Source: Croceivirga sp.
GTDB lineage: Bacteria; Bacteroidota; Bacteroidia; Flavobacteriales; Flavobacteriaceae
Direction of reading: 5' to 3'
Length of the DNA: 64,000 nucleotides
Assembly: GCA_028284285.1 (NCBI GenBank)
Contig: JANQSA010000032.1
Coordinates: 186,001 to 250,000, forward strand
A model generated the notes under the pieces. The model ran no database searches and was not told the origin of the DNA. It saw only the letters and a program-made list of their open reading frames with translations. Shown piece by piece: positions 10,556-63,691 of this stretch. The first letter of the stretch is position 1. Each line of letters opens with the position of its first letter. Both the position numbers and the translations under genes were made by a program.

Positions 10556-13500
10556 TCATGGTCTATTCGCTGTCTTCTTAAGCACTTCGACTTTTCCACT
10601 ATTGGCACTTGCCACTAAAAGTTGCCCCCCAGAATTGGAACGTACCGCCGTCAATTGAGTAATGTTGCCCTTTAAAAAAATACCACTTTCCGAAGGGGAC
10701 AATGCCCTAAAATTGTTTTTTCCATCCCCCAAAAGGCAGACCCCGACTGAGGCATCGTGCCATCCATAGGTGTTTTCCGAGGCATGGGTATTTCCAGCCG
10801 CTATAATATCCATATTTCCATCCCCATTGGCATCATCAATATAAATTGCAAAAATGGGACCCATCTGAGCCTCAATAGGGAGTTCCCTCATGGTAAAACT
10901 ATTGTTTCCGTCATTAATAAAAAGTGTGGAGGCAAAGGTTTTTGCTTCCAGCTTGAGGGCTTTTTTGGTCAGATTGTCCGTCAATACGTTGTCAAATGAA
11001 GCTTCGGAATAGGCTTGGTAGGTTTTAAATATCTTTTTATAGGCCACAACCTGTTTGGCCAAGTCGTCAAGACCATGATAGGGAAAGAGGTCGATTCCTC
11101 CGGTAGCCGTTGATTTCATGTAGCAAGCAAACAAAGGATCTACTTTGCCATTCTCGTCAAAGTCATCGGCATATAGCAAAAAGGGGCGGTCGGGAGTGGC
11201 CTTGTAATCCTGGTTCAAGCCCAGATTGCCCACTACATAATCGGTGTCACCATCATTGTCAAAATCTGCAGCCTGAATCGTATTCCACCATCCTGTGCTT
11301 TTTGAATCTATGGACAAGGAAATCCTTTTTAAGGTTCCGTTGTCATTTTTAAAAATGGTCAGGGGCATCCACTCACCAACAAGCAGTAGGTCTTCCCAGC
11401 CATCACCATCATAATCGGACCATATAGCATCGCTTACCATACCAACTCCAGAGAGTCCAGCTACCTGTTCGGCTACATTGGAGAAGTTACCGCTGTTGTT
11501 GTTCAATAAATAACTCTCCGGAGCCATGGGATACTGACCCGGTGAATATCTTCCCCCTACAAATAAGTCGATATCCCCATCTTGGTCATAATCGGCCCCT
11601 GCAACACAGCCTCCACTGGCGGTCAATGGGGGAAGCTTGTTCGATGGTTCAAAATGGCCCAGACCATTATTTATATATAGACGGTCTTGATAAAACGGCG
11701 AGTTCAGTGGATGTTCGCTTCCGCCGCTCACCACATACAGGTCGTTGTCTCCATCATTATCGGAATCGAATAAAAACGAATCCATATCCTCATATTGGGC
11801 ACTGCTTTCTGGGAACTCCTGCTTTCTGAATTTTCCTGAGGAATCTTGGACAAACAGCGATGAAACATTGCCATAGCTTCCTCCTATATATATATCGGCA
11901 CCCTTCTTGCCATCAAGCGGCCCAGCTGTCATTGTCGGCCCGCCCCTGGAATACATTTTTAGCAATAGCGGATCTGCATCAAAATCGTTGAACATGTTTT
12001 CCTCATGCCTATGGTCTAGTATACTATCTACAACCTTAGTGAACAGTCCCCTGTTTTTTTCGTTTCGCATTACCCGTTCCGAATCCCCTTTTTGGTGGTT
12101 GATTTCCACGGTTTGGTTTACGGGAATATGCCTTTGAACAAAATGAGTTCCATCGGGCCATATCACCTCTATTTTATCTATGATGGTATCTTTGCCCAGG
12201 CCAAAGTGTATAGCATCGTTCATACTGGACAAATAGCCTCTGGTCGGGGCCACATACGCATATTGGTTGGAACCATTGTGCTCGACATACACCTTGGCAC
12301 CTGTGGCATTGCGATTGGAAGTCGCACCATTTAACCTCACCTTTAAATAATTGTTCTTGTTTTCCGTGATATTTTGATAGACCAGGGCCTCGTGGTCAAT
12401 ATCATTGGTGACAATGTCCAAATCGCCATCGCCATCCAAATCTGAGAATATGGCTCCATTGGAAAAGGAGGGTATGCCCACCCCGGATGCTTTGCTAACA
12501 TCACTATAGGTTAAGTCCCCATTGTTTTGATAGAGAAAATTGGGGATTTTGACTTCGGGGATAATCTTATAGAGTTCCTTGGTTCTATTCTGTTTTGCCT
12601 CCTTGGTGCCAAAGTAGGAGTTATTAGCGTCGTAGTTGATAAAATCCAGATCGGTCATATCTTTTACAAAGCCATTGGAAATAAAAATGTCCCTGTCCCC
12701 ATCATTGTCAAAATCGGCCAATAGGGGAGCCCAACTCCAATCCGTTGCGTGTATTCCGCCGAGTTGGCCTATTTCCGAAAAGTGTATGTCGCCGTTAAGG
12801 TCTGTACCTCTGTTCAATTGGAGGGTGTTACGAACATATTGGGGAATGTAGCCCGCCTGGTTGATCAATCGGAACTTTTTCGGATGCATACCGCTGAGCA
12901 TTGACTTTCTTCGGTCGTTGTTATCAGGCAACATATCCAGCACCATAATATCCGGAAGCAGATCGTTGTTCACATCGGCAATATCCACCCCCATACCGTT
13001 ATAGCTCTGGTGCCTCAGATAATCCTCAGAGAGATCTTTGAACGATTTATTACCTTGGTTTATGTACAAGCGGTCATTGGGCATAAAATCATTGGCTACA
13101 TAAATATCCGGCCAACCATCATCGTTAAGGTCGTTTATCGCCAAACCAAGGCCGTAGCCCTCATGCACAATACCGCTTTCCAATGACTTTTCTACAAAAT
13201 AGGGGTGATCCATGCCATCAGATGTTCCCAAGTTTTCATATAAACGGTCTATGGTTTGTCCTTTGGTGGCGGCAAATGCCTTGTCATAAATAAAAGTCTT
13301 GTCAACGGTATCTATACAATTGGTAAGAATAAATAGATCGAGATCGCCATCCCCGTCGTAGTCAAAAAAAGCAGATTGGACACTGAAGGAAGCATCAGCA
13401 ATGCCATAATCGTTTGCCTTCTCCAAAAATGTCGGAATACCTTCCTCGTTTAGTCCTTGGTTTATGAACAGCAAATTTTTTTTATTGGCACTCTCATGCC

Positions 13501-13894
13501 CCGCGATATTCACATAAATATCTAGCCAGCCATCTGCATTGATATCCACCATGGAAACGCCCATGGCCCATCTATCAGTGGTCATCCCGGCCTTGGATGT
13601 AATATCCTCAAATTGCATCGCTCCCTTATTCATATATAGTTTAGAGCCCACCATATTGCCACTAAAAAATAAATCGGGCAGGTTGTCGTTATTGAGGTCC
13701 CCAACACCCACGCCTCCTCCATTATAGATATAGTAGTAATCTACCAAGTTGATGGAATCATTTGCGGTGATGGTATTTGAAAAATGGATGCCCGTGCTTG
13801 AAGGTGATAGTACTTTGTAGGCAATACCGACTTTTTCTTCTTCACAGCTGATTAAGCAAAGAATTAAAATCAATGTAGCAAAAGGTCTTGTCAT
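10556..13894 (-). CDS. VCBS/FG-GAP repeat lipoprotein with ASPIC/UnbV domain (VCBS-A)
   Basis: The 1,112-residue protein starts at the ATG at 13894. This gives a lipoprotein signal (MTRPFATLILILCLISC, lipid Cys17); an upstream in-frame ATG at 13972 would bury it. Many calcium-binding FG-GAP/VCBS motifs of the DxDxDGxxD type (DINADGWLDIY, DYDGDGDLDLF, DFDNDGDRDIF, DYDQDGDIDLF) form a seven-bladed propeller-like region on each side of a central ASPIC/UnbV-like segment at about 515-600 (IEVIWPDGTHF). No catalytic motif was recognised. Its place directly after susD, where many Bacteroides PULs put SusE/SusF, suggests a surface glycan-binding or SusCD-accessory role. That is inference. Confidence 0.82.
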   Translation of the reverse strand: MTRPFATLILILCLISCEEEKVGIAYKVLSPSSTGIHFSNTITANDSINLVDYYYIYNGGGVGVGDLNNDNLPDLFFSGNMVGSKLYMNKGAMQFEDITSKAGMTTDRWAMGVSMVDINADGWLDIYVNIAGHESANKKNLLFINQGLNEEGIPTFLEKANDYGIADASFSVQSAFFDYDGDGDLDLFILTNCIDTVDKTFIYDKAFAATKGQTIDRLYENLGTSDGMDHPYFVEKSLESGIVHEGYGLGLAINDLNDDGWPDIYVANDFMPNDRLYINQGNKSFKDLSEDYLRHQSYNGMGVDIADVNNDLLPDIMVLDMLPDNNDRRKSMLSGMHPKKFRLINQAGYIPQYVRNTLQLNRGTDLNGDIHFSEIGQLGGIHATDWSWAPLLADFDNDGDRDIFISNGFVKDMTDLDFINYDANNSYFGTKEAKQNRTKELYKIIPEVKIPNFLYQNNGDLTYSDVSKASGVGIPSFSNGAIFSDLDGDGDLDIVTNDIDHEALVYQNITENKNNYLKVRLNGATSNRNATGAKVYVEHNGSNQYAYVAPTRGYLSSMNDAIHFGLGKDTIIDKIEVIWPDGTHFVQRHIPVNQTVEINHQKGDSERVMRNEKNRGLFTKVVDSILDHRHEENMFNDFDADPLLLKMYSRGGPTMTAGPLDGKKGADIYIGGSYGNVSSLFVQDSSGKFRKQEFPESSAQYEDMDSFLFDSDNDGDNDLYVVSGGSEHPLNSPFYQDRLYINNGLGHFEPSNKLPPLTASGGCVAGADYDQDGDIDLFVGGRYSPGQYPMAPESYLLNNNSGNFSNVAEQVAGLSGVGMVSDAIWSDYDGDGWEDLLLVGEWMPLTIFKNDNGTLKRISLSIDSKSTGWWNTIQAADFDNDGDTDYVVGNLGLNQDYKATPDRPFLLYADDFDENGKVDPLFACYMKSTATGGIDLFPYHGLDDLAKQVVAYKKIFKTYQAYSEASFDNVLTDNLTKKALKLEAKTFASTLFINDGNNSFTMRELPIEAQMGPIFAIYIDDANGDGNMDIIAAGNTHASENTYGWHDASVGVCLLGDGKNNFRALSPSESGIFLKGNITQLTAVRSNSGGQLLVASANSGKVEVLKKTANRP

Positions 13895-13931: not shown

Positions 13932-13976
13932 TCTTTTGGGGGAATATGCTGCGGGAACAGCATTACCCCCAAAAGA
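13932..13976 (-). promoter_or_regulatory. Intercistronic stem-loop between susD1 and VCBS-A
   Basis: TCTTTTGGGGG (13932-13942) pairs perfectly over 11 bp with CCCCCAAAAGA (13966-13976). The loop itself holds a second 6-bp stem (ATGCTG/CAGCAT). On the minus strand it lies after the susD stop and before the VCBS start. Candidate attenuator, processing site or 3'-end protector. Confidence 0.75.
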
Positions 13977-13988
13977 AAACTTAAATCA

Positions 13989-14001
13989 AACTAAACTAAC
14001 T
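13989..14001 (-). promoter_or_regulatory. Conserved 13-mer upstream of the susD1/VCBS hairpin
   Basis: It reads AGTTAGTTTAGTT on the coding strand. The identical 13-mer occurs at 31321-31333 and 49466-49478, each time between a susD stop and the following hairpin, and each time 12-16 bases before the hairpin. Confidence 0.7.
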
Positions 14002-14028
14002 CAATAAAAACAGTATGACCAAACTATA

Positions 14029-15561
14029 TTATAGATAGGCCGGGTTTTGATTTAGGTTGGGATTGGTATCCACATCCCCTTGTGGTACAGGCAAATACTC
14101 ATTTCTTCCCTGAATAAAGTTCGCATTTGAATTACCCCTTCTCTCGGGGTTGTTGTTAAAGGTTTCAGCAGCAATGCCCCAGCGCAACAAATCAAACCAT
14201 CGGTGGCCCTCGAACGAAAGTTCGCGAACACGTTCATCTCGAATGGCCTGCCGCAATCCATCCTGTGCCAGGCCCGTATAAGCTGGCATATCTACCCTGG
14301 CTCGTACCTCGTTCAAACGGGCCAATGCATTGGCAGATCCACCGTTGGCTTCGTTTTCGGCCTCGGCATACATTAAAAGTATATCGGCATAACGGATATT
14401 TCTCCAGTTTTGGGTGCTGGCGGCCCATCCACCGTCGTCAGCACGGGTATGGTCGAAGTTCAAGTACTTTCGTATCAATAGATCTCCGGATGAGAAGTTG
14501 GTTAAAAAATCATCTTGATACACTTTGGCTCCAGGATAATCCCAAACGATAGAAACCTTCGTTCTGGGATCTTCCTCACCACCAGTGGTGGTCTGCGCCA
14601 TAAAAAGATCAAACACCCATTGGTTTACATCAGCCGAACCCTGACTCGTATAACCGGGTGGGGCAATATCATTTTCCCAGGCCTGTCCTCTCCAAACATT
14701 ACCGCCAGATCCACCCCAACCTCCGCTGAGGTTGGCATCATATTGGATCTCGAAGATAGATTCCGCGTTGTTTACATTGGCCTCGTCAAAATTATGCTCA
14801 TAGGCAACACCATCTAGGGTGTACTCCCTGTCCAGTATTTTTGCAAATTCGGCGGATGCCTCGGCCCATCGCTCTTGGTATAAATAGATTTTTCCCAGCA
14901 TGGCAAAAGCCGCCGCTTGGGAAGCACGGCCCGTGTTGGCGGCATCCCACTTGAATGGCAAGGCTGTCGCGGCTTCGCTAAAATCAGCTTCCATGGAATC
15001 ATAAAATTCATCGGCACTTGCAGCGGGCAGTTGGAGGTCCTCTACCGACTGGATAGTGTTTTTGTACAAAGGAATGTGTGGCCCCCAAGTATGGAACAAA
15101 TAAAAATGGGCAAATCCCCTCAAAAACTTTGCCTGGGCAATGATTTGTGCTTTCAGGGTCTCATCCATATCAATATTGGGCACATTGTCAATCACTTGGT
15201 TCGCCGTAGCCACAGTTTTGCTGATTTCCCGCCAAAACTCCAACATTCTGGGTTGAGTTGAGGTGGTGGTAAACGTGCCCGGGTCATTTACATTGGTAAG
15301 TGGAAAGGGATCCACATCATCCCCACGCTGGATCAACATAATACCTACACCCATCCTTCCAAAAGATTCCACAGTTGGCAAAGTCGCATAAACTGCTGTC
15401 AATCCTTGTTGGGCATCATTTGCGTTCTGCCAAAAACTCTCAGAGCCCAGTTCGTTGGGGTTGACTAAGTTCAATTCTACATCAGGATTACATCCTGTAA
15501 ATACCAATACCATAAAAGACATTGGTATCAGATATTTTCTAAAATCTCTTTTAACTTTCAT
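14029..15561 (-). CDS. SusD/RagB-family outer-membrane glycan-binding lipoprotein (PUL1)
   Basis: This is a 510-residue lipoprotein (FTGC lipobox ending near residue 24) with the SusD signatures: an N-terminal NPNELGSESFW block, a TPR-like helical core (AKFLRGFAHFYLFHTWG) and the C-terminal hallmark RELSFEGHRWFDLLRWG followed by the LPVPQ(G/S)xxxxNPxLxQNPxY ending. It caps the SusC porin and delivers oligosaccharides to it. It begins 43 bases after the susC stop and is followed by the 13-mer/hairpin element, which separates it from VCBS-A. Confidence 0.95.
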   Translation of the reverse strand: MKVKRDFRKYLIPMSFMVLVFTGCNPDVELNLVNPNELGSESFWQNANDAQQGLTAVYATLPTVESFGRMGVGIMLIQRGDDVDPFPLTNVNDPGTFTTTSTQPRMLEFWREISKTVATANQVIDNVPNIDMDETLKAQIIAQAKFLRGFAHFYLFHTWGPHIPLYKNTIQSVEDLQLPAASADEFYDSMEADFSEAATALPFKWDAANTGRASQAAAFAMLGKIYLYQERWAEASAEFAKILDREYTLDGVAYEHNFDEANVNNAESIFEIQYDANLSGGWGGSGGNVWRGQAWENDIAPPGYTSQGSADVNQWVFDLFMAQTTTGGEEDPRTKVSIVWDYPGAKVYQDDFLTNFSSGDLLIRKYLNFDHTRADDGGWAASTQNWRNIRYADILLMYAEAENEANGGSANALARLNEVRARVDMPAYTGLAQDGLRQAIRDERVRELSFEGHRWFDLLRWGIAAETFNNNPERRGNSNANFIQGRNEYLPVPQGDVDTNPNLNQNPAYL

Positions 15562-18988: not shown

Positions 18989-19029
18989 ATTTTTGTTTGA
19001 TTTTAGTTAATAGCTTTAATCGGTTTATC

Positions 19030-27880: not shown

Positions 27881-30800
27881 CTAGGGCATTTCAACAGCCG
27901 CTTCCCATTTTTTCAATTGAAATACACCCATAGATCCATTGTTTCTGGCCACAAGCAGGAGTTTTTCCCCTGAGGCAGTGGCAATCCACTGTAGATCGCG
28001 CGTTTGCCCTTTTAGCAACAATCCAGTAGTCAAATGCCCTTGCGGAACAAAGTTTCCATTCCCATCGTTGATGCCGACAAAGCCCATAGAGGCATCCTGC
28101 CTTCCCAAGGGAGGGTTGAGGTGGTAAAAATTTCCTCCCGCAATGAGATCTTGGTATCCATCCCTGTTTATATCTACAGCGGCCATGCCCATCACAGAAG
28201 AAATATTGGCTTCTTTGGGCAATGGCCTCATTTTGAACTGTCCGTTCCCCAGATTTTCTATGTACATGGAAGCGAGCTCGGCTGTTTCAAGGATTTTGGC
28301 CCCTTCTATCCCTTCCTCAGTAAACATATCATGGATTGTGGCACCGGAAAATGATTTGTACGAGGGGAATTTCTTTTTGAGCATGGGCATCTGTTTGTCC
28401 AGCAAATCTTTCTCGGCCAGTGCGTATTCTGCATCCCCCACATAATGGGTAATCACGGCATCCTGCCTTCCATTTTGGTCAAAATCCTTAACATAGAGAC
28501 GTAGCGGTTTTTCTGCAGATGCCTCGAGCTTTGTGTTTTGTCCCAAGTTCCCTACCACCAAATCCATATCGCCATCATTGTCAAAATCCTCGGCCATGAT
28601 GGTGTTCCACCAACCGGTACTGTGTTCCAGGCCAGGGGTATCCATCCGCTTTTTCAGTATCCCATTATTGTTGTCAAATACGGTCACGGGCATCCATTCG
28701 CCCACCACTACCAGTTCTTTCCATCCATCTCCGTTTACATCTACCCAAATAGCATCGGTAACCATACCCATTTTATTCAGGTCTTCCAGAACCACTTCTT
28801 CAAAATTTGCCCGGCCATTGTTGCGGTATAGATAACTCTTCGGGCTTGGGCCATAATTGCCTACTAGCACTCTTCCTCCAACAAACAAATCAACGTTCCC
28901 ATCTTTGTCGTAGTCTTCTGCGACAACCGTGGAATTTTGCCCTGGGGCACCCTTAAAGTTTGTTGATGAACGGTATTGTCCAGTTCCAGTATTGAGATAA
29001 AAATTGTCGTAACATTCATAATCGTCCGGTTTTTTTTCGTTACCCGCCGTAACGACGTACAAATCCATATCACCGTCGTTGTCGGCATCAAAAAATACCG
29101 CATCCACCTCCTCGGATTCCCTGGCGTTCCCGAATGACAACTGGGCCTGTTGCTCAAAACCGCCTTTTGGGGATTGGATGAAAAGCTTCCCGGCATGGCC
29201 GCTGGCCGCTGTAACATAGAAATCTTGCAGACCGTCTCCATTTGCATCCGCAACGGCTATGGCAGGCCCTTCTCTGGAAACATTTTTGGGGACCAAGAAA
29301 TCCACATACTGGTCATGAAAGACATTCTCTTTGTGTACATAGGGAAAGCCAACAGAACTGGCGGTAAAATATAAAGTGGTGTCCGATGGTTTTGCATCTT
29401 TATAATACTCTCCATGGGCGTTTTTTTGGTATACATCTAACGTTTGGTTGAACGGAGGGTTATCGATCCTTTCATAAGCACCCCCAGGCCAAACTACCCT
29501 TAGGGAGTTCGCATGTTTACCATACCCCAACCCAAAATGGATTTCATATCCCACAGAGGACATAAACCCACGAACGGGGTTTTGTTCATGGTATAAAGTG
29601 CCGTCATCAAACTCCAAGAACACTTTTGTGCCTACCCCTTTTGTATTGCCCCCTTTGCCATGTAGACGGATTTTCAAATGGTTGTTGTCTGGCAATTTTT
29701 CATTGGCATGGTTTTCTATGATATAGGCCTTTTGGTTGATGTTGTTGACCACCAGTTCCAAATCGCCATCATTGTCCAAATCGGCGTAGGCCGCACCATT
29801 GGAATGACTCAGGGCTTCCAATCCCCATAATTGGGTAGCATCTTCAAATCGTTGCCCTCCCCTGTTTTTGAATGCTACATTGGATACCGGATCTTGGGGC
29901 ATCAATGAAACCAGTTTTTTGGTTACGGCCTCAATCTCTGAATCCATTACGGCTTGAATGGCCGTGTTGGAGGTGTAATTCAGATAATCCAAGTTATTAG
30001 GGCGACGATATATTCCGTTGGTGATATAAATATCTTTTAGACCATCATTGTCGTAATCGGCCATTAAAGGGGCCCAGCTCCAATCCGTGGCCTCGATGCC
30101 TGCAAAGGGTGCTATTTCAGAAAAATGGCCATTTTGGTTCAGCTGTAGGTTATTCCTGGCCAATTGGTTGGCATACCCGTTGCCCAAAATGAGCTCCCGT
30201 ACCAGATAATTGTCTTCTGCCATGGATTTTTGCAGCACTTTGGGGTTTTTGGGAAGCATGTCCAAGGTCATAATATCTATTAAACCATCATTATTTATGT
30301 CTCCAGCATCCACCCCCATGGAGTACTTGCTGGTGTGGGCAACCATTTCGTTGAGCCTATCGGTAAAGGTGCCGTCACCATTGTTGATGTAGAGATAGTC
30401 GTTTTCATGAAAGTCGTTCGAAACATAAATGTCAGACCATCCGTCATTATTGACATCCAGACACCGTACCCCAAGGCCAAAACTTATGGGATTGGAATAT
30501 ATTTTTGATTCCTCGGTAACATCCACAAACTTTATCTGGCCATGCTCCATCTTGTTTTCCAACAACCGGTCACCGGCTTTTTTGTCCTTTGCATGTATAA
30601 TTCGCTCTCGTACGGCATAGGAATTATGGGTGTGCAGGCCATGGTTCAATAAGTACATGTCCAGATCGCCATCATTGTCATAATCGAAAAAAGCCGCTTG
30701 GGTGGAAAAGGTTTCGAAGTCCAGGCCGTATTCAGCTGCACTTTCGGTAAAAGTGACCAATCCCGAATTTGTTGATGGTCCATTGTTGATATAGAGTTCG

Positions 30801-31243
30801 TTCTTCCCTTTTTTTCCCTTATATCCCCCCAGATAACATACGTAAATATCCAAAAATCCATCGGCGTTGATATCCATAATTGAAACTCCCGTGGTCCAGT
30901 CTCCCGCCCCAGCTACTTGTGCGCTTTCAGTAATATCTTCGAACCTTAAATTACCCTTGTTCAGATAAAGGCGATTCTCTTCCAAATTGGAGGCAAAATA
31001 TAGGTCTTCCAATCCATCATTGTTGATGTCACCTATGGCCACCCCGCCGCCATTGTAGTAATAGAGGTAGTTGATGATGTTAAAATCACTTTCTTCAGGA
31101 AGGTGATTCTCAAAGTCAATTTGGGATTTGGATTCAGGGACAAAAGAAAAATGCGGATCGACATCATGTTTATTATTTTGACGACATGCGGTGGTCAGAG
31201 CCAAAATACCCAACAGTATTGTGAAGCTATTCTTTCCTTTCAT
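27881..31243 (-). CDS. VCBS/FG-GAP repeat lipoprotein with ASPIC/UnbV domain (VCBS-C)
   Basis: This is a 1,120-residue lipoprotein (LALTTAC, lipid Cys20) directly downstream of susD2. Calcium-loop repeats include DINNDGLEDLY, DINADGFLDIY, DYDNDGDLDMY, DVNNDGWSDIY and DFDNDGDMDLV. The ASPIC/UnbV-like part ends with LRVVWPGGAYERI. It is closely related to VCBS-E of PUL4: both share NYLYYYNGGGV, the MSSVGY/MSSVSH region and a C-terminal FYHLNPPLGRQDAS / FYHLTPPLGRQDAS block. Its position after susD and constant length suggest a fixed role in the uptake complex. Confidence 0.83.
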   Translation of the reverse strand: MKGKNSFTILLGILALTTACRQNNKHDVDPHFSFVPESKSQIDFENHLPEESDFNIINYLYYYNGGGVAIGDINNDGLEDLYFASNLEENRLYLNKGNLRFEDITESAQVAGAGDWTTGVSIMDINADGFLDIYVCYLGGYKGKKGKNELYINNGPSTNSGLVTFTESAAEYGLDFETFSTQAAFFDYDNDGDLDMYLLNHGLHTHNSYAVRERIIHAKDKKAGDRLLENKMEHGQIKFVDVTEESKIYSNPISFGLGVRCLDVNNDGWSDIYVSNDFHENDYLYINNGDGTFTDRLNEMVAHTSKYSMGVDAGDINNDGLIDIMTLDMLPKNPKVLQKSMAEDNYLVRELILGNGYANQLARNNLQLNQNGHFSEIAPFAGIEATDWSWAPLMADYDNDGLKDIYITNGIYRRPNNLDYLNYTSNTAIQAVMDSEIEAVTKKLVSLMPQDPVSNVAFKNRGGQRFEDATQLWGLEALSHSNGAAYADLDNDGDLELVVNNINQKAYIIENHANEKLPDNNHLKIRLHGKGGNTKGVGTKVFLEFDDGTLYHEQNPVRGFMSSVGYEIHFGLGYGKHANSLRVVWPGGAYERIDNPPFNQTLDVYQKNAHGEYYKDAKPSDTTLYFTASSVGFPYVHKENVFHDQYVDFLVPKNVSREGPAIAVADANGDGLQDFYVTAASGHAGKLFIQSPKGGFEQQAQLSFGNARESEEVDAVFFDADNDGDMDLYVVTAGNEKKPDDYECYDNFYLNTGTGQYRSSTNFKGAPGQNSTVVAEDYDKDGNVDLFVGGRVLVGNYGPSPKSYLYRNNGRANFEEVVLEDLNKMGMVTDAIWVDVNGDGWKELVVVGEWMPVTVFDNNNGILKKRMDTPGLEHSTGWWNTIMAEDFDNDGDMDLVVGNLGQNTKLEASAEKPLRLYVKDFDQNGRQDAVITHYVGDAEYALAEKDLLDKQMPMLKKKFPSYKSFSGATIHDMFTEEGIEGAKILETAELASMYIENLGNGQFKMRPLPKEANISSVMGMAAVDINRDGYQDLIAGGNFYHLNPPLGRQDASMGFVGINDGNGNFVPQGHLTTGLLLKGQTRDLQWIATASGEKLLLVARNNGSMGVFQLKKWEAAVEMP

Positions 31244-31277: not shown

Positions 31278-31304
31278 ACGACAGGGGAAATCTACCCCTG
31301 CCGT
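31278..31304 (-). promoter_or_regulatory. Intercistronic stem-loop between susD2 and VCBS-C
   Basis: ACGACAGGGG (31278-31287) pairs with CCCCTGCCGT (31295-31304), with one A.C mismatch in ten and a 7-base loop. Same position as in the other modules, unrelated arm sequence. Confidence 0.7.
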
Positions 31305-31320
31305 TCTTTGAAACTAACTT

Positions 31321-31333
31321 AACTAAACTAACT
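31321..31333 (-). promoter_or_regulatory. Conserved 13-mer upstream of the susD2/VCBS hairpin
   Basis: AGTTAGTTTAGTT on the coding strand, identical to the copies at 13989-14001 and 49466-49478; 16 bases before the hairpin and 23 bases after the susD stop. Confidence 0.7.
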
Positions 31334-31356: not shown

Positions 31357-33078
31357 TTAATAATCAGGGTTTTGAGTTAAAACCTGATTGCCATCTTCAT
31401 CCAATGTGATTATAATCTGGTTTTCGGGAATTGGCAAATAATCTGATTTGTAACTTGCACTAGATGCGATCAGCGGACGTTTTTGACCTTCTGATGAAAA
31501 ATAATCTTCCATAACCTCTCTTGCAATGCCCCATCGTATCAAATCATACCATCGATGTCCTTCCAATGCCAGTTCTAATCTACGTTCAAAACGTACCGCT
31601 TTTCTGGCGAAATCCTGATCTGGGAATGCAGTATAAGGTTCAATCACATAATTGGCCGCAGGGGTTCCATCTTCAAATTGGACTGGGGTACTATTTTTCG
31701 CCCGATTTCTTATCCTATTCACATAATCCAACGCCGTACCTAAATCCCCTTCTTCAACCGCAACTTCTGCTCTTAATAAAAGTATATCGGCATATCTGTG
31801 AAAACTATAATTTACCGTGGTCATGCCTGCTTCGGATCCATTGTTCCTTTCATGCTCCTCTGCGGTTGCCAACATTTTCTTAGCGCGGTAAGGTCCATAT
31901 GTTATGGGATCAACTATCCAATCCCTGCCTGGAAAAATACCATGGTCAAGATAGGGTATTCCTCTTCTACCGACCGTATGATCCAGTCTTGGATCGAGAT
32001 TATCAGTGGGCGGTGTAAAAGGTTCATCACTATCGATGCCATCATCATTTGCCAGATCTACATCGTTAAATGTATCTAAAAGAGGAAGGCCATTGATGTC
32101 CGTTTTATAGGCATTGACCAGGTTTTGGGAAGGTTGCATAAAACCGCAGCACCCATGAATTTGGGCTATTCCCACCAACAGTCTTCCCCAGTTACCGTTC
32201 CAAGGGTTCCCTACATCCCTCAAGCTACTGGCCATTTGAAAGATAGCCTCCTTATTGGTACTCTGCTGTTCGAATTCAATTGTAAAATTATCCGTGAACT
32301 CATCATGCAATATATATCTACCGCTTGAAATGATGGCATCCAAAAACGGTTTTGCATCTGCATAGCGGTTTTCATCCATATAAAGCTTTGCCAGACCTGC
32401 CCGGGCAGCGTTCACATGCGCTCTGGCCCATTGAAAAGGTTCTACCGGCAGGTTTTCCACGGCGAACAGATAATCTGCTTCTATATTCTCAAAAATATCC
32501 CTATCATTGGGTATTGCAAAATCTTCTACATTTTCATCCACATAAGGCAATCGATTGAAATACCTTCTGCCCAAATGATAGAAATGCGCCCTCAAAAACC
32601 GGGCCTCACCTGCAATACGGGCAGCATCTTCACTGGATAGGCCTTCTGTATCGGCCAAAATACTTAACACACCATTTGCCCTCGCAACTCCTTCATAAAT
32701 TGAAGTCCAAGCGGCCTCCAAATAGGAATTATTGGGCTGTAAAGTACCCCATAGCTCAAAAGCGTTCATATCGGGTTGATCGGCAATGGACGAACCTTTT
32801 AACGCATTATCAGAAGAAACATCCCCATATAGCCAATTGTCATGGGAGGAAGCCCAACCCACATTTGCCGGGCCATCGGTACGGCCATCCAACGCTGAGT
32901 AGGCACCTATCAATGTAGCGTCCAAGGCATCTAAATTCCGTAAAACTTCAGGGTTGAGTCTACCTACAGGGGTCAGCTCAAGATAGTCATCCCCACACGA
33001 AACAAGTGAGATGGAAGACATAAAAAATATGGCACCCCCCCGTATTAAAGTATATCGAATTTTTGAATATATTCTCAT
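31357..33078 (-). CDS. SusD/RagB-family outer-membrane glycan-binding lipoprotein (PUL2)
   Basis: This is a 573-residue lipoprotein (SSISLVSC lipobox near residue 28) with the DDYLELTPVGRLNPEVL start, the helical SusD core (ARFLRAHFYHLGRRYFNRLPY) and the C-terminal RRLELALEGHRWYDLIRWG and LPIPENQI...LTQNPDY. It starts 10 bases after the susC2 stop. Its C-terminal 100 residues closely match the partial SusD at the right window edge, so PUL2 and PUL4 are probably sister modules. Confidence 0.95.
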   Translation of the reverse strand: MRIYSKIRYTLIRGGAIFFMSSISLVSCGDDYLELTPVGRLNPEVLRNLDALDATLIGAYSALDGRTDGPANVGWASSHDNWLYGDVSSDNALKGSSIADQPDMNAFELWGTLQPNNSYLEAAWTSIYEGVARANGVLSILADTEGLSSEDAARIAGEARFLRAHFYHLGRRYFNRLPYVDENVEDFAIPNDRDIFENIEADYLFAVENLPVEPFQWARAHVNAARAGLAKLYMDENRYADAKPFLDAIISSGRYILHDEFTDNFTIEFEQQSTNKEAIFQMASSLRDVGNPWNGNWGRLLVGIAQIHGCCGFMQPSQNLVNAYKTDINGLPLLDTFNDVDLANDDGIDSDEPFTPPTDNLDPRLDHTVGRRGIPYLDHGIFPGRDWIVDPITYGPYRAKKMLATAEEHERNNGSEAGMTTVNYSFHRYADILLLRAEVAVEEGDLGTALDYVNRIRNRAKNSTPVQFEDGTPAANYVIEPYTAFPDQDFARKAVRFERRLELALEGHRWYDLIRWGIAREVMEDYFSSEGQKRPLIASSASYKSDYLPIPENQIIITLDEDGNQVLTQNPDY

Positions 33079-36559: not shown

Positions 36560-36611
36560 AATTTTGATTGGTTTAAATAATTTTTCACATACGTTATTGA
36601 GCCAGTTATAC

Positions 36612-45982: not shown

Positions 45983-45990
45983 TCAAAACA
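45882..45990 (+). pseudogene. Fragment of an ECF sigma factor gene (region 4)
   Basis: The frame reads SLPEYTMNIFLDHVVNGLT, a stop (TAG), then NEIAEMNNAN. This aligns with LPESRKNIFLDHVVNGLSYREIAEANN of sigma2 (38038-38556), with the stop in place of the tyrosine codon. Region 2 and the rest of the gene are missing. It faces the end of VCBS-D tail to tail, exactly as the intact sigma genes face the last gene of the next PUL. Confidence 0.75.
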
Positions 45991-48900
45991 TTGATTTGGT
46001 ATAAAACCGAAGTGCCTCGTTATTGCGAACAAATATAATTTTGTATTCTTTGTTCGCGCCCTTTAGCAGCCCAATATGCTTTACTTCGCCGGTGACCAAA
46101 ATTCCACTCTGTACGGGGGTGACAGCTGTAAAGGCTTGTGTGCTTTTTTTACTGCCCGTAAGGAATAGTCCATAACCGGCATCACTCCTGGGGGTCTCCA
46201 CTTCCGAGCCATAGAGATTGCCAGCGGCCAAAATTCCCAGCTTGCCGTCCCCATCGAAATCAAAGGGCAAAATTGCGTTGATGGACGAAATCTGGGCCAT
46301 AGCCGGCAAAGGATGACCGATAAATTTCCCATCCTTGTTTTCAAAATACGTATTGGAAAAATTGTTGGCCTTGTAATGTACGGAGTTGTCCAGGTTCTCC
46401 TCGCCATACACTTCACCCAAGGTGGCCTTGCCAAAGGCATCGTATGATTCGAATTTCTTTTTGATAAAGGGCATTTGGTTGGAAGAGCATTCGCGCCCCC
46501 TTAACGGGAACAAATCCCCTTCGTTATAATAGCCCAGAACAATGTCCAGATTGCCCGATTCATCAAAATCCTTGGCATACACATCAAAGGTTTCCTCTTT
46601 ACTGGCCCTGTATTTATAGTTTAGGCCCAGATTGCCACAAATCAGATCCATATCGCCGTCTTGGTCAAAATCGGCTGCCGCGATGCTGTTCCACCAGCCC
46701 ACTTCTTGTCCTAGTTTAGAAGCACTGGAGATATCGATGAAATGATCCTTTTGGTTTTTAAAGAGTTTAATGCCCATCCACTCGCCAACCACCAACAAGT
46801 CTGCTAGGCCATCGCCATCCATATCGGCCCAAACGGCATCGGTCACCATCCCAAGTCCATCGAGTTCCGGAATCAAATCTTTGGAAACATCCACAAACCG
46901 AATGTCCCCATTTGAGCTTTGGTTCTCCAAAAGATGACTTGATGCCGGCAGTGGGTACTTGCCCGGTATTTGCCGCCCCCCCACAAAAAGGTCTATGTCG
47001 CCATCGCCATCATAATCATAAGGCTTTACGCAGGAACCACTTGAAACAAAATCAGCATATATTGCCTCATTCTTTAGGAAGACCCCCTCTTTGTTTTCAT
47101 AAAATCGATCTTGATAATAGCTGGAATTTTCCTCCTGTTCATTGCCTCCGCTCACCACATATAAATCCAAATCCCCGTCATTATCGGCATCAAACAGGGC
47201 AGCACCTACATCTTCATAGTGCTTGTCTACTGTAAAGGCTGGTTGTGACCGAATAGAAAAGGTGCCATCCGAGTTTTGCAAGAACAGGTTCCCTGAATGG
47301 CCCAGGGCACCGCCCAGGTAAAAATCGTCCAGCCCATCTGCATTGACATCACCAACTGTGAATGCCGGGCCTTGTTGCGACATCTTATGAGGCAACAGGC
47401 TTTCTTTTTCAAAATCGTCGTAGGGGTTCTCCTTATGGGCAAATAATAGGGTGATATCCGTGATATCCGTGAACATTTTTTGGGAAGGTTCTTGAACCGG
47501 TTCCCCATTTTTGGCCTCAGAATAGTTTAAGACCAATGTTTGATCGGGCTTAATGTTTCGAAGTATTTGGGTTTTCCCATCCGGCCAAACCACAGTTACT
47601 TCATCTATGTTTTCCGTATTCCCCACTCCAAAATGCAATCCGGGAGCCATGGAAGACTGAAACCCTCGGGTAAGATAGTGTTCCCTTGTTTGAACTTTCG
47701 AATCGTATTTGACCAATACTTTTGCCCCGATGCCCAATTTGTTTTTTTCACCTCCTTCTAACTTCACCTTCAAAAAACGGTTTAGAGTATGTTGGGCCTG
47801 GTTCCATTGTACATATGAAATGCTATCCGTATTGTTGACCACCAGATCCAAATCCCCATCATTGTCAAAATCGGCATAGGCTGCCCCATTGGAACAGGTA
47901 AGGCTTCCTTGATCCCAGATACCGTTCATTTTTTTGAACCGCATCCCATCCAGGTTCTTGAAAAAATAATTGGGTTTGTACCTTGTAGGGATTTTTCCCA
48001 TTACTTTCTGAACGTAAAGCTGTTCATCCAAATGCCCAATACTGTCCATTTCCCTTCTCAAATCTTTCATATAATTCACAAAATCGTTATTGCGAAAATC
48101 CCGTTTGATCCCGTTGGAAATAAAAAGGTCTTGATGTCCATCGTTGTCCATATCAAAGAAAAGTGGCCCCCAACTCCAATCCGTACTCGAGGTAGTGGAA
48201 AATTGGGCAATGTCTGAAAACATTGGAATTCCCCGGCCATTGGTGCCATTGTTCATTTGAAGCGTGTTGAACATATACTGGTGGTGCTGCCCCATATCCA
48301 CCAATTCGTGGAAGGTTTCGGGCTGCATGGAACTCATACTGGTTTTAATGCTATAGTTGTCCTCGGACATCATATCCACGGCAATAATGTCCATCCATCC
48401 ATCATTGTTAAAATCGGCCATATCATTGCCCATGGAAAAATTGGGGACATGGTTCATGGCTTCTTTTGACGATTCCAGAAACGAGTTGCCATTTTGGTTG
48501 ATGTAGCAATGATCCTTACCAAAAAAGTCATGCCCCACATATATATCAGGCCAGCCATCATTGTTGAGGTCGCCAATGGCCAAGCCAAGCCCAAAACTGA
48601 GTTTATTGTCCACAATGCCCATTGCATCAGTAACATCGCTAAACTTTCCCCCATCATTTCGGAACAACTTTTCACCAGTTTCACCGCCTTTAACCGAGGC
48701 ATAGTAGGCCACCTGCTCCTTTCCCTGTACGTCAATCTCATGATTGATCATAAACATATCCAGATCCCCATCCCTGTCATAATCAAAAAAGGAGGCCTGG
48801 GTAGCAAAATGGGGGAGGTCTAAATTGTAGTCTTTGGCAGCCTCCCTAAAATGGGGAATCCCAGTTTTATCCGTACCTTGATTTAGGTACAGTTCATTTC

Positions 48901-49366
48901 TTCTTCTATTCGGGTCTTCAATACGGCCGGAAGCACATATATAGATATCCAGCCAACCATCATTATTGATATCTACGGTGGTGACCCCGGTTTGGAAAGG
49001 GGCCTTTCCTTTTACGTTGGCCAGAGGGGTGACATTTTTAAAGGAATTGTCTTTATTGTTCAGGTATAATTGGTTGTCGCCCATGGTAGCGACAAAATAG
49101 ATATCGTCAAACCCGTCATTGTTGAAATCACCCGTGGCCACCCCACTGCCATTGTAGTAGTACTCATAGAAAAGGCCGTTCATATAGGTGCTTTCGGGCA
49201 GTGCGTTTTTAAACCGAATCTTTGATTCCCGGGAAGTTGCCCGAACAAACAAGGGCAGGCTTGCGCCCGCTTTATCACGATCCAACGATCTTTCGGATGC
49301 ATTTTGATGACAGTTAAACATGAGCATGGACAGCATGCCCATTAAAAGTCTCTTAAATATGTCCAT
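45983..49366 (-). CDS. VCBS/FG-GAP repeat lipoprotein with ASPIC/UnbV domain (VCBS-D)
   Basis: The start is placed at the ATG at 49366 (1,127 residues), giving a lipoprotein signal (MDIFKRLLMGMLSMLMFNC, Cys19); in-frame ATGs at 49381 and 49393 add a non-signal extension. Calcium-loop repeats include DFNNDGFDDIY, DINNDGWLDIY, DYDRDGDLDMF, DMDNDGHQDLF and DFDQDGDMDLI. A central ASPIC/UnbV-like part has VTVVWPDGKTQIL. It forms a third subtype beside A/B and C/E. It is the only downstream gene of PUL3, so this module has binding and uptake parts but no hydrolase of its own. Confidence 0.83.
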   Translation of the reverse strand: MDIFKRLLMGMLSMLMFNCHQNASERSLDRDKAGASLPLFVRATSRESKIRFKNALPESTYMNGLFYEYYYNGSGVATGDFNNDGFDDIYFVATMGDNQLYLNNKDNSFKNVTPLANVKGKAPFQTGVTTVDINNDGWLDIYICASGRIEDPNRRRNELYLNQGTDKTGIPHFREAAKDYNLDLPHFATQASFFDYDRDGDLDMFMINHEIDVQGKEQVAYYASVKGGETGEKLFRNDGGKFSDVTDAMGIVDNKLSFGLGLAIGDLNNDGWPDIYVGHDFFGKDHCYINQNGNSFLESSKEAMNHVPNFSMGNDMADFNNDGWMDIIAVDMMSEDNYSIKTSMSSMQPETFHELVDMGQHHQYMFNTLQMNNGTNGRGIPMFSDIAQFSTTSSTDWSWGPLFFDMDNDGHQDLFISNGIKRDFRNNDFVNYMKDLRREMDSIGHLDEQLYVQKVMGKIPTRYKPNYFFKNLDGMRFKKMNGIWDQGSLTCSNGAAYADFDNDGDLDLVVNNTDSISYVQWNQAQHTLNRFLKVKLEGGEKNKLGIGAKVLVKYDSKVQTREHYLTRGFQSSMAPGLHFGVGNTENIDEVTVVWPDGKTQILRNIKPDQTLVLNYSEAKNGEPVQEPSQKMFTDITDITLLFAHKENPYDDFEKESLLPHKMSQQGPAFTVGDVNADGLDDFYLGGALGHSGNLFLQNSDGTFSIRSQPAFTVDKHYEDVGAALFDADNDGDLDLYVVSGGNEQEENSSYYQDRFYENKEGVFLKNEAIYADFVSSGSCVKPYDYDGDGDIDLFVGGRQIPGKYPLPASSHLLENQSSNGDIRFVDVSKDLIPELDGLGMVTDAVWADMDGDGLADLLVVGEWMGIKLFKNQKDHFIDISSASKLGQEVGWWNSIAAADFDQDGDMDLICGNLGLNYKYRASKEETFDVYAKDFDESGNLDIVLGYYNEGDLFPLRGRECSSNQMPFIKKKFESYDAFGKATLGEVYGEENLDNSVHYKANNFSNTYFENKDGKFIGHPLPAMAQISSINAILPFDFDGDGKLGILAAGNLYGSEVETPRSDAGYGLFLTGSKKSTQAFTAVTPVQSGILVTGEVKHIGLLKGANKEYKIIFVRNNEALRFYTKSMF

Positions 49367-49423
49367 TTTAATCTGTTCCATGGCAGGGTCCATAAAAGAA
49401 ACACCTGTTGTTAATATAAGAAT

Positions 49424-49452
49424 ATCCAGAGAATCTTATAGACTCTCTGGAT
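49424..49452 (-). promoter_or_regulatory. Intercistronic stem-loop between susD3 and VCBS-D
   Basis: ATCCAGAGA (49424-49432) pairs perfectly over 9 bp with TCTCTGGAT (49444-49452), loop 11. Same placement as in PUL1, PUL2 and PUL4. Confidence 0.72.
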
Positions 49453-49465
49453 TTCTGCTGAAATA

Positions 49466-49478
49466 AACTAAACTAACT
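49466..49478 (-). promoter_or_regulatory. Conserved 13-mer upstream of the susD3/VCBS hairpin
   Basis: AGTTAGTTTAGTT on the coding strand; third identical copy, 13 bases before the hairpin and 44 bases after the susD3 stop. Confidence 0.7.
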
Positions 49479-49522: not shown

Positions 49523-51082
49523 TCATTGGTACCCTTCATTTTGGGTAAGGTTGCCCCTAGAATTATCAATTGCATCAAAAGGTATGGGAAACAGCACATA
49601 GTGGGGTTGGAATCCCAATTGCTGAATAAAGGACAAAAAGTCCTGATCCTCCGAGATGCCATTTATCTTATCGCCCAAGAGTCCCCATCGCAAGAGATCC
49701 CAACGCCGATGACCTTCCATACCCAGTTCCCAAGCCCTTTCATCGATGATGGCCTCCCTGAATGAAGCTTGATCCAGGTCTGAAAGTCCCGGAAGACCGG
49801 CCCTTTCTCGTACAGCGTTAATATACGAATAGGCACCATTTGGACCATTCAACTCATTTTCGGCTTCGGCGCGCAACAACAATATATCGGCATAGCGCAG
49901 TAGGTTAATGTTAACATCGCCCCTGTTACGTATTTGGTCAACTCCGGGGTTTAAGTATTTGGTGATGTGTGGCCTGGGCTGGTCATCAGCAGTCGCAGGC
50001 TCCTCATCCGGACCGTTTTCCCGGCCAAAGTTCCATGTAGGGCCCCCATCGGCATTTTCCAAGAAAAAGCCTTTGGCCAACCGTTCATCAGCCGGATCAA
50101 AACTATTAAACCAGTCAAAAGTGGGAATTACATTGCTCCAACCCCCTTTGGGATGGGTAAACCCATTGCTCCTGGAATTGAGATCCCCAAATTGGGTATG
50201 GATACGCGGCCCTCGTAAATTGCTCTCGTACTGCACATCAAAAATCTTTTCTTGGACTTGTGCACCATCCTTATTGGGATATAGTGCAAATTCCCCAGAA
50301 GTACCGCGCCATAAGTCGGCATAATCGGCCACCAAATCGTAGCGGCCCCCAGATATCACAGCTTCCGTGGAGGAGATTACATCAGACCATTGCTGCCGTA
50401 CTGCATATACCTTGGCCAACATGCCGTTTGCCGCATCCACAGTGACCCTTCCCTTCTCCGCATCGCCATAAGTGTCGGGCAAGGCGTTGGCGGCAGCGAT
50501 CAGATCGGGTATGATCACGTTGTTGTACACATCGGCAACGGGCTGCCTTACCTGCCCGGTAAATATTTCGTCCAAGGAGGTGGCAGGTTCCAATACAATG
50601 GGCACATCCCCAAAATACTGGGCCAAATAAAAGTAGTAGTATCCCCTTAAAAACCGCGCCTCGGCTATCAAGGGTTCTAAAATGGATACATCCTCCGGCA
50701 CGTTGGGGATGTTGACGATGGCCGAATTGGCCGTGGCAATTCCCAACCAAGCCTGGTTCCAGATGGAGTTGATCCGTCCATCACTGGAATTCAACGGAGT
50801 GTTGTAATTGGCTATGGGATTGTTTCCCCTTCGGTCAAAGGCCAAATCCGTACCCCAAATAGAGGGAAGAAACTCATTCTCGTTCACTTGCAGATAGGTA
50901 TATATGGCAATCACTGCCGCCCGGGCATCCGCCTCGTTTTGAAAAAAGTTCTCTACCGTTACAAAACTGGGCGGATCCTCGGTCAAAACATCGCTGCAGG
51001 AAATGTTCAGTAGTACCATCCCGCCAAGCAGGGATAGTGCGATTTTGCGTAGTTTCTTTAGTATATACATTTTCTTGGTCAT
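49523..51082 (-). CDS. SusD/RagB-family outer-membrane glycan-binding lipoprotein (PUL3)
   Basis: The start is placed at the ATG at 51082 (about 519 residues; ATG 51070 is also possible), 10 bases after the susC3 stop. The longer frame from 51229 would overlap susC3 and bury the lipoprotein signal (LSLLGGMVLLNISC). SusD signatures are EDPPSFVTVENFFQNEADA, ARFLRGYYYFYLAQYFGDVP and the C-terminal AWELGMEGHRRWDLLRWG and LFPIPFDAI...LTQNEGY. It binds glycan at the surface with SusC3. Confidence 0.94.
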   Translation of the reverse strand: MTKKMYILKKLRKIALSLLGGMVLLNISCSDVLTEDPPSFVTVENFFQNEADARAAVIAIYTYLQVNENEFLPSIWGTDLAFDRRGNNPIANYNTPLNSSDGRINSIWNQAWLGIATANSAIVNIPNVPEDVSILEPLIAEARFLRGYYYFYLAQYFGDVPIVLEPATSLDEIFTGQVRQPVADVYNNVIIPDLIAAANALPDTYGDAEKGRVTVDAANGMLAKVYAVRQQWSDVISSTEAVISGGRYDLVADYADLWRGTSGEFALYPNKDGAQVQEKIFDVQYESNLRGPRIHTQFGDLNSRSNGFTHPKGGWSNVIPTFDWFNSFDPADERLAKGFFLENADGGPTWNFGRENGPDEEPATADDQPRPHITKYLNPGVDQIRNRGDVNINLLRYADILLLRAEAENELNGPNGAYSYINAVRERAGLPGLSDLDQASFREAIIDERAWELGMEGHRRWDLLRWGLLGDKINGISEDQDFLSFIQQLGFQPHYVLFPIPFDAIDNSRGNLTQNEGYQ

Positions 51083-51092
51083 TAGATTTTTT

Positions 51093-54488: not shown

Positions 54489-54535
54489 AAATTAGCATTT
54501 GGTTTAGTTATACATTTTTGTAATTAAACTGTCTG

Positions 54536-63100: not shown

Positions 63101-63535
63101 GTTACAGACATAAATGTCCAAATAACCATCGGCGTTGATGTCCACCATATTGCAGCCGTTGGACCAATCATATGCCCCACCCACGTGGGAATCTTCCGTT
63201 ATGTCTTTAAATTTTAGGTCGCCTTGGTTGAGGTAAAGTCGGTTTTTTTCAAGGTTGGAGGTAAAATACACATCATCGAGGCCATCATTGTTGATGTCGC
63301 CAATAGAAACCCCGCCACCATTGTAGTAGTAGAGGTAGTTGAGGATGTTGAAGTCTGCGGATTCGGGTAGACTGTTGACAAAAGAGATTCCGGTATGAGT
63401 AGCTTCCTTATATATAAACAAGGCATCCTTATTGTCTTTCTCGCACGAAACAAAAAAGCAACCGGTAACAGTAAACAAGAGGAAACCGGTATTAAACAAA
63501 AGCTTTAAAAACCAGGGACTACTGATTGATTTCAT
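60185..63535 (-). CDS. VCBS/FG-GAP repeat lipoprotein with ASPIC/UnbV domain (VCBS-E)
   Basis: The start is placed at the ATG at 63535 (1,116 residues), with a hydrophobic signal ending in FFVSC (lipid Cys near 31). Calcium-loop repeats include DINNDGLDDVY, DINADGYLDIY, DYDRDGDLDMY, DINGDGWTDLY, DLDNDGDLDLV and DIDQDGDLDLF. A central ASPIC/UnbV-like part has LQVVWPDGSFEVV. It is closest to VCBS-C of PUL2. It follows a SusD gene, as in all other modules, and is followed by two GH172 genes. A surface glycan-binding role is inferred from context only. Confidence 0.82.
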   Translation of the reverse strand: MKSISSPWFLKLLFNTGFLLFTVTGCFFVSCEKDNKDALFIYKEATHTGISFVNSLPESADFNILNYLYYYNGGGVSIGDINNDGLDDVYFTSNLEKNRLYLNQGDLKFKDITEDSHVGGAYDWSNGCNMVDINADGYLDIYVCNLGNFDGKTGRNELFLNNGDGTFREAAAEYQLDFSTFSTQSCFFDYDRDGDLDMYLLNHAIHTIDAYVPRNRIKHTPDTLSGDRLLRNNADQGLTTFTDVTQEAGLYSNPVGFGLAVAAADINGDGWTDLYVSNDFHENDYLYLNNGKGGFDEQHAQWFGHTSKYSMGSDVNDINNDGLPDVMTLDMMPELPEVLQKSMAEDHYTLRKIILEKGYAPQLSRNTMQLNQNGRFLDVAPYMGVEATDWSWSPLFMDLDNDGYKDLYITNGIYRRPNDMDYLNYTSNAAIQSVMGQKNEVITKKLIELMPQMKIENKTYHNQNGEDFEEVNAQWRLNRPSHSNGVAYADLDNDGDLDLVVNNINEEAFVIENRHAQQNPKYRSLNVKLYGNALNPTGIGAKIKVVTQNNRIFHEQQPSRGFMSSVSHMIHIGVGEVETINELQVVWPDGSFEVVKDIPVSKTHHSYQKNAQGDYYAQTTEPKPKIFTEEKGLLSFEHQENEYHDTYVEELIPRLLSREGPGMAVADVNGDGLEDVFITGASGREDALFLQDARGNLTQSQQPAFVPFAEAEGVDALFIDADGDQDQDLYVVTAGNERAVLPQLTQDLLFLNDGNGTFTQAENSGIPSGQHAVVKASDIDQDGDLDLFVGARVMAGEYGKIPKSHVLLNKGDGNFKPLTNGAINQVGMVTDAAWVDLDADGWQDLVVVGEWMAITVFRNNQGNLEKIKAPKGLENTEGWWNALLVEDLDNDGDPDFVVGNIGLNTKLSASAEHPIKLYCNDFDTNGTVDPIITSFTNGKEYPLATKDQLMKQLPMIKKKFPSYNTYSGTTIEAIFDEEQLADSQIKVAKQLASVVVENKGDFTFEIYPLPMVANFSSLNSMVAFDANGDGLKDLIVAGNFYHLTPPLGRQDASLGFVGINQGGMLFRFQDPASSGLLLKGEVRKLQWLNGFKAKYLLGARNNAPAVVYKMKANGKD

Positions 63536-63572
63536 ATACATGACCATAAGAATCATTTATACAAAAGTAATA

Positions 63573-63597
63573 GGGGAGTAGTTTTTTACTACTCCCC
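63573..63597 (-). promoter_or_regulatory. Intercistronic stem-loop between susD4 and VCBS-E
   Basis: GGGGAGTAGT (63573-63582) pairs perfectly over 10 bp with ACTACTCCCC (63588-63597), loop of five T. A degenerate form of the 13-mer (around 63615-63628) lies between it and the susD stop. Confidence 0.72.
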
Positions 63598-63691
63598 ATA
63601 AAACCTAAACTTAAAACTAATTCAAACTATTGCTCCTCTCACTATTACTCTAACTCGTTATAGAGTTTATTCATTCGATTATTCAATGCTA

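Follow-up and report, generated by a model that had tools for sequence, protein, structure and literature searches.

A large part of the algal polysaccharide in the ocean is broken down by marine flavobacteria, which use many PULs to do so, and both the ranking of these loci and the avoidance of outer-membrane overload by SusCD are understood mainly at the level of transcription. The window analyzed here, a 64-kb stretch of DNA, contains four PULs, organized mostly as minus-strand operons, in which a short sequence and a hairpin follow the susD stop codon, raising the question of what this element is for. A first-pass annotation had read it as an RNA element of susD-VCBS junctions that sets the ratio of SusCD to downstream proteins. 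Here we analyze its copies, its structure and its complementarity to mRNA leaders in the genome that contains the window, in its genus and in other genera of its family.

Genes for SusD, SusC, the FG-GAP/UnbV_ASPIC (VCBS-type) lipoproteins, FecR and ECF sigma factors were identified with Pfam where scanned, and otherwise by BLAST to those so identified. In PUL1, susD (14029..15561, minus strand, like all coordinates given for the window; PF07980, PF14322) is followed by the core ATTGAGTTAGTTTAGTTTG (13987..14005), which includes the exact 13-mer at 13989-14001, by a hairpin with an interrupted stem 3' of the core (13932..13976) and then ATTTTG, and by the FG-GAP/UnbV_ASPIC (VCBS-type) lipoprotein gene (10556..13894, with a likely start codon, assigned by eye, at 13894). 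PUL2 has susD at 31357..33078 (PF07980), a core AGTTAGTTTAGTTAAGTTAGTT at 31312..31333 that combines the exact 13-mer (31321-31333) with an overlapping 11/13 copy, a hairpin at 31278..31304 and the FG-GAP/UnbV_ASPIC lipoprotein gene at 27881..31243. The susD gene of PUL3 (49523..51229; PF07980), whose start is uncertain, given that its open frame overlaps susC, precedes an exact 13-mer (49466..49478) with AGTAGTTTGGCTT 5' of it, a hairpin (49424..49452) and the FG-GAP/UnbV_ASPIC lipoprotein gene (45983..49393). In PUL4, susD extends past the end of the window and was read in loci L007/L208; the core TTTGAATTAGTTT (63614..63626; L077), a 12/13 match to TTTGAGTTAGTTT, lies 5' of a hairpin with ten perfect pairs (63573..63597) and of a VCBS-type lipoprotein gene (60185..63556) recognized by a BLAST match of 1184 bits to its PUL2 counterpart.

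The identical 13-mer of PUL1, PUL2 and PUL3, the strong stem-loop placed 12-16 bases past it, and the perfect 10-bp stem with a degenerate 13-mer in PUL4 are all as the first-pass annotation had described them: the gaps between core and stem, calculated from these coordinates, are 12, 16 and 13 nt in PUL1, PUL2 and PUL3, and the RNA folds of the four elements beat those of shuffled sequences (z = -6.9, -4.3, -4.3 and -2.6 for PUL1 to PUL4), the PUL1 element folding at -31.6 kcal/mol. With up to two mismatches allowed, the 13-mer occurs six times in the window, against an expectation of 1.53 and a maximum of five over 100 shuffles.

Genome-wide (4.82 Mb), the 13-mer AGTTAGTTTAGTT has four exact copies, the three of the window and one on contig C80, and all four lie just after a susD stop codon; its read-backwards control has two copies. 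Reading downstream of 21 susD genes of the same genome (PF07980 matches) revealed a longer core, GTTTGAGTTAGTTTAGTT, which has the 13-mer at one end and is located 5' of a terminator-type hairpin. The sequence TTTGAGTTAGTTT has nine exact copies in the genome (two for the read-backwards control); as judged by eye, eight of them precede a hairpin and five of these eight follow susD. The ninth (L056, C39:42470) lies on the opposite strand, where it reads AAACTAACTCAAAC and ends at a start codon; the gene concerned resembles, by eye, an MFS sugar transporter, and its leader, which carries the exact complement, makes it a candidate target outside susC.

Over the 11 genomes of the genus, TTTGAGTTAGTTT is present in 37 copies, versus six for the control, and a match of at least 11/13 falls within the first 120 nt downstream of 44 of 148 susD genes, where dinucleotide shuffles predict 2.85. 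These 148 regions were drawn from 181 PF07980 matches in the genus, the omissions including seven listed matches, one with an internal stop and one second gene piece from the window's genome. At the scale of the family, a 17-mer, TTTGAGTTAGTTTAGTT, occurs 30 times in 25 of 299 genomes (control, one copy), and a SusD-like C-terminus was recognized by eye upstream of 10 of these 30 copies, one of the ten being that of the window's genome. The closest SusD match whose record names a Flavobacteriaceae species is that of Pareuzebyella sediminis (52% identity; L114), on the strength of which the family is taken to be Flavobacteriaceae; GTTTTGAGTTAGTTG and a hairpin lie behind this susD. The best match of the SusD scan as a whole (73%), in a MAG labelled Cytophagales (L113), has the hairpin and lacks the core. 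The genes downstream of motif-bearing susDs vary in kind, as judged by eye, and the core also follows non-susD genes. Of the proposed association with susD-VCBS junctions, the position after susD is therefore retained and the tie to VCBS genes is not. Two further sequence arrangements were seen at these loci: a low-complexity repeat tract of the GAAGTACGAAGT/GAATAACGAATAAC type right after susD in three genomes (L017, L291, L293), and a core-like sequence with a terminator behind small proteins with YLPxxFDPY-type segments (C21:21.7-22.4 kb, L070 and L071; L483).

The hairpin has a wider distribution than the core. In the genus, hairpins scoring at least 17 follow 32 of the 44 motif-bearing susDs and 40 of 89 susDs without the motif; a hairpin is thus frequent after susD even where the motif is missing, and the core constitutes an additional feature. 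No hairpin reached a score of 17 at the remaining 12 of 44, among them PUL1 of the window, whose hairpin falls below this score because its stem is interrupted. In the 32 cases with a hairpin, the following 8 nt carry one to seven T, and the T tracts of the four window copies are poor to moderate. A G+C-rich stem with a T tract, the criterion for an intrinsic terminator, is found in many susD copies and in the separate RNA gene described below. The susD-junction hairpins thus look like terminators of varying strength, and the range of T counts makes leaky termination there possible. Family-wide, a hairpin scoring at least 20 lies behind 24 of the 30 17-mer copies, against 4 of 300 background positions (25/30 versus 28/300 at a threshold of 17). 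At three loci with Cytophagales or related labels (L113, L116, L118), susD and the gene behind it are separated by a core-less hairpin, so the hairpin reaches further among lineages than the seed. The copies have the seed in common and differ in their hairpins, whose stems share no sequence. Near locus position 1500 in four loci from other genera (L407, L409, L423, L424), a long terminator-like stem lies behind the 17-mer and encloses a shared GATCGGGGGAACGGG-type hairpin, with no Rfam match there. An internal promoter within the core (TAnnTTTG) was considered and discarded, as no exact fit was seen by eye among the susD copies.

The core also forms the body of an intergenic RNA gene with a T-tailed terminator (C82:270999-271066, minus strand), which all 11 genomes of the genus carry. 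Its core, with two UUUGAGUUAG repeats between which weak self-pairing is possible, is nearly invariant; its flanks and neighbor genes differ between genomes. The stem shows two-sided changes at four of nine pairs, with a covariation score matched by 0 of 500 shuffles. The first-pass view of an RNA element with conserved pairing in its stem is to this extent supported: the element behaves like one, the compensatory changes having been found in the stem of this RNA gene, which has the same core. A covariance model of the gene matches 52 of 149 family genomes at E<=0.01 and 21 of 149 at E<=1e-5 (the window's genome included), and eight of nine pairs change on both sides among the 21 aligned matches, in an alignment that is fitted to the model and leans towards it. 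A class-wide draw of 197 other genomes, some of them of the same family, gave no match at E<=0.001 under stricter filters. Because the same type of lipoprotein gene precedes many of the 21 matches, in several genera, the RNA could be the 3' UTR of that gene. The evidence for a promoter of its own is partial. A TATATTTG box lies 41 nt before the seed in the window's genome and is not conserved in the ten orthologs of the genus; TAnnTTTG occupies the expected position in none of 21 genera, and in nine of them the weaker AnnTTTG lies close to the expected 5' end (background, 12/420). In L427-L435, a largely conserved block like GCAATTATAACATATTGCTAAAGTTTARTTAACC, with an imperfect palindrome, begins or lies within approximately 40-100 nt of the RNA gene on its upstream side and is perhaps an operator or promoter.

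Since antisense matches to the core appeared in the leaders of PUL-type genes, the duplex energy of the core was scored on start regions (-40..+10). In the window's genome, the mean for susC is -10.36 kcal/mol, with 12 of 19 genes at or below -10 (one susC at a contig edge dropped, four start codons set by hand), versus -6.18 kcal/mol and 7 of 127 for other genes, a set drawn from PUL neighborhoods that includes one other TonB receptor, and -6.24 for coding stretches (n=292); none of 60 dinucleotide-shuffled motifs performed as well on these susC leaders. Seven relatives gave a susC mean of -10.31 kcal/mol, with 33 of 58 at or below -10, compared to -6.23 for coding stretches (n=174) and to a mean of -7.91 (17% at or below -10) for dinucleotide-shuffled leaders, and 3 of 100 dinucleotide-shuffled motifs equalled the real one. 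For these relatives, 78 susC leaders were computed, 60 requested, 59 obtained and 58 scored, and start codons there and in the named loci discussed below were picked by a signal-peptide rule. The complementarity peaks in the start region: 68% of 77 susC genes reach -9 or lower in the -40..0 window, and the share is 3-12% in windows that begin at -260 to -80. At the median, the 52 pairings of -9 or lower extend from -25 to -8 counted from the start codon; the profile is flat for non-susC genes. Within the window, the core has a predicted pairing site in the PUL1 susC leader (18989..19028, containing ATTAACTAAAATCAAAC, start codon 18988; -13.4 kcal/mol); pairing is moderate in that of PUL3 (54489..54528, containing AACTAAACC, start codon 54488; -8.8 kcal/mol) and weak in that of PUL2 (36560..36599, with a hand-picked ATG at 36559; -6.8 kcal/mol), and this weak PUL2 pairing counts against an sRNA reading of the element.

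The same relationship emerges from enrichment analysis carried out independently of the motif. Between 64 nonredundant susC leaders and 100 nonredundant susD 3' regions, three of the top 14 leader 8-mers are reverse complements of top-14 susD 3' 8-mers (AACTAACT, AACTAAAC and TAAACTAA). The observed susC-minus-other difference was reached by 0 of 300 single-base shuffles of the 18-mer seed and by 0 of 200 of the RNA-gene core, and the reversed seeds give -1.6 and -1.2, versus -4.15 and -4.35 for the real ones. Among named loci, 77 of 80 were scored and three that were Flavobacteriaceae by name were removed; the remaining 74 susC leaders from outside Flavobacteriaceae, by record title mostly Cytophagales, Sphingobacteriales, Chitinophagales and Bacteroidales, have a mean of -6.95; seven of the 74 reach -10 or lower, and a comparable peak is absent. 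In other genera of the family, two of eight scored leaders located upstream of motif-bearing susDs are at or below -10 (nine were fetched, one lacked a start, and one of the eight does not look like SusC); the Pareuzebyella sediminis leader reaches -7.8 despite the motif after its susD, and a Flavobacterium leader -11.1. Complementarity to susC leaders thus holds within the genus and is mixed across other genera of the family.

Rfam searches of the element loci returned no family at its cut-off, in agreement with the initial statement that no named element of this kind is known, and no description of the element was recognized in the open-licence papers searched. Matches below threshold to the Enterobacterial STnc430, STnc480 and STnc390, among others, were taken as chance, as was that of the Bacteroides BTnc049 over the L006 element (22.7 bits, cut-off 81.9). 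A close parallel is FopS, reported as a family of paralogous sRNAs of Bacteroides thetaiotaomicron, deposited in Rfam and with one 3' UTR-derived member, whose predicted targets are enriched in SusC-like transporters bound near the start codon, and which blocks SusC translation in that organism (PMC11697453). The element analyzed here resembles FopS in having a mostly single-stranded seed followed by a Rho-independent terminator and in the complementarity of this seed to susC translation starts, which here holds in the genus and is mixed in other genera. It differs in that no match named FopS appeared in the Rfam searches of its loci, in belonging to another bacterial family, and in having many copies after susD inside susCD operons, with a shared seed and differing hairpin sequences. 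In addition, no RRM_1 (RbpB-type) protein was found in the genome: the Pfam model gave no matches there and recovered its positive control in Bacteroides ihuae. In the best-supported model the element works like FopS; it is not to be filed as FopS, neither the sequence match nor the RRM_1 partner having been found.

Other known systems were compared as well. OppZ and CarZ of Vibrio cholerae are reportedly autoregulatory 3' UTR-derived sRNAs. Autoregulation by bacterial 3' UTR-derived sRNAs, in which a gene or operon is regulated in turn by an RNA that its own 3' end yields, is the subject of one report (PMC7398697). The element differs from the autoregulatory systems in that no Hfq was found in the genome with the Pfam model and in that its pairing is not operon-specific. 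The Rfp sRNAs of Flavobacterium psychrophilum, such as Rfp18, which pairs with protease mRNAs via its third stem-loop, are conserved in Flavobacteriaceae; the available text of their report describes no SusC-leader network for them (PMC9723704). The Flavo-1 RNA motif of Rfam, widespread in Flavobacteriaceae according to the same text (PMC9723704), is absent from the matches of a lax Rfam search at the element loci.

The conservation of the core, its copies behind non-susD genes, the separate RNA gene and the complementarity to susC leaders are better explained by a base-pairing seed acting in trans, and we regard it as moderately probable that the core is the pairing seed of a family of base-pairing sRNAs, located partly in susD 3' UTRs, that acts in trans on susC translation. 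The weak pairing of the Pareuzebyella leader and the lack of conservation of the promoter box of the RNA gene lower this estimate slightly. Each member would comprise a mostly unstructured, C-poor, AGUU-rich stretch with an intrinsic-terminator hairpin behind it. The dedicated RNA gene, conserved throughout the genus and in some other genera, would be one such member, and many others would be the 3' ends of susCD mRNAs and of a few other mRNAs, the four window copies included; these 3' UTR copies would be released or would otherwise act as RNAs. In the cell, the seed would pair with G-poor AACUAAACUAACU-type leaders just upstream of susC start codons, most likely blocking translation start in trans, a mode of repression suggested by analogy with FopS. 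In this way the dedicated sRNA, or a single activated PUL, could reduce the synthesis of SusC proteins encoded by every PUL.

The alternative that survives best, which we nonetheless deem unlikely, is that the core is a protein-binding site or an aid to termination or stability at the 3' end, an upstream module of the terminator read by an RNA-binding protein or an RNA polymerase factor, with susC complementarity arising as a by-product. The core does sit 5' of hairpins behind many unrelated genes, is C-poor with AGUU repeats, has a strong hairpin next to it in most family-wide copies and shows mixed complementarity outside the genus. A site of this kind would, however, leave unexplained why susC-leader words are partial reverse complements of the core, why the peak at the start codon is found in susC and not in other genes, and why it is absent from the 74 leaders of other lineages; RRM_1 and Hfq proteins were not found in the genome, other binders being possible.

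We consider still less likely the proposal of the first-pass annotation, a cis element at the junction that sets the SusCD-to-downstream ratio by leaky termination, processing or 3'-end protection. The terminator-like hairpins that separate susD from the operon genes behind it, and whose T tracts range from poor to good, are consistent with it, and so is the core-less hairpin at the same junction in L113, L116 and L118. Such a role, however, requires the hairpin alone and not the core, and it accounts neither for the conservation of the 13-mer nor for the copies at unrelated genes, the separate RNA gene and the complementarity to susC leaders. It could hold for the hairpin alongside the trans-acting seed.

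A third possibility, a looping or cis-autoregulatory arrangement in which the two ends of one mRNA, leader and 3' tail, pair with each other, draws on the leader and tail of one operon being complementary in kind. Over 26 operons, however, cognate leader/tail pairs score -15.55 versus -17.10 for non-cognate pairs, so cognate pairs are not favored, and the susC leaders of operons with and without the core are equally complementary (-10.19, n=26, versus -10.43, n=43). Both results argue against simple autoregulation; a shared seed acting in trans fits them and looping within the same mRNA does not, making this arrangement very improbable. An artefact of composition, in which any GU-rich sequence would find matches in G-poor, A-rich leaders (approximately 0.08 G in the genus) and the counts are raised by paralogous copies, gains some plausibility from dinucleotide-shuffled motifs that score fairly well on susC leaders too (-8.1 and -8.8), and is likewise highly doubtful given that reversed and single-base-shuffled seeds fall short, that the susC leaders of other lineages, likewise A-rich and with approximately 0.09 G, show no peak, and that the motif-free 8-mer comparison used de-duplicated sets.

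On the reading of the core as a trans-acting pairing seed, the results suggest a hidden RNA layer of sugar-uptake control in marine flavobacteria. More tentatively, and as a possibility that we hold to be somewhat less probable than its opposite, the dedicated sRNA and the susCD tails, sharing one seed directed at most susC leaders, may form a network in Flavobacteriaceae that caps total SusC output, each active PUL taxing all of them, and that needs neither Hfq nor an RRM protein. Even if regulation turns out to be weaker, the conserved RNA gene could be put forward as a new Rfam entry. If the proposed pairing is true, a seed in susCD tails together with a dedicated sRNA would constitute a simple brake across PULs, and SusC-targeting sRNA families would exist in a lineage in which no RbpB-type protein was found.
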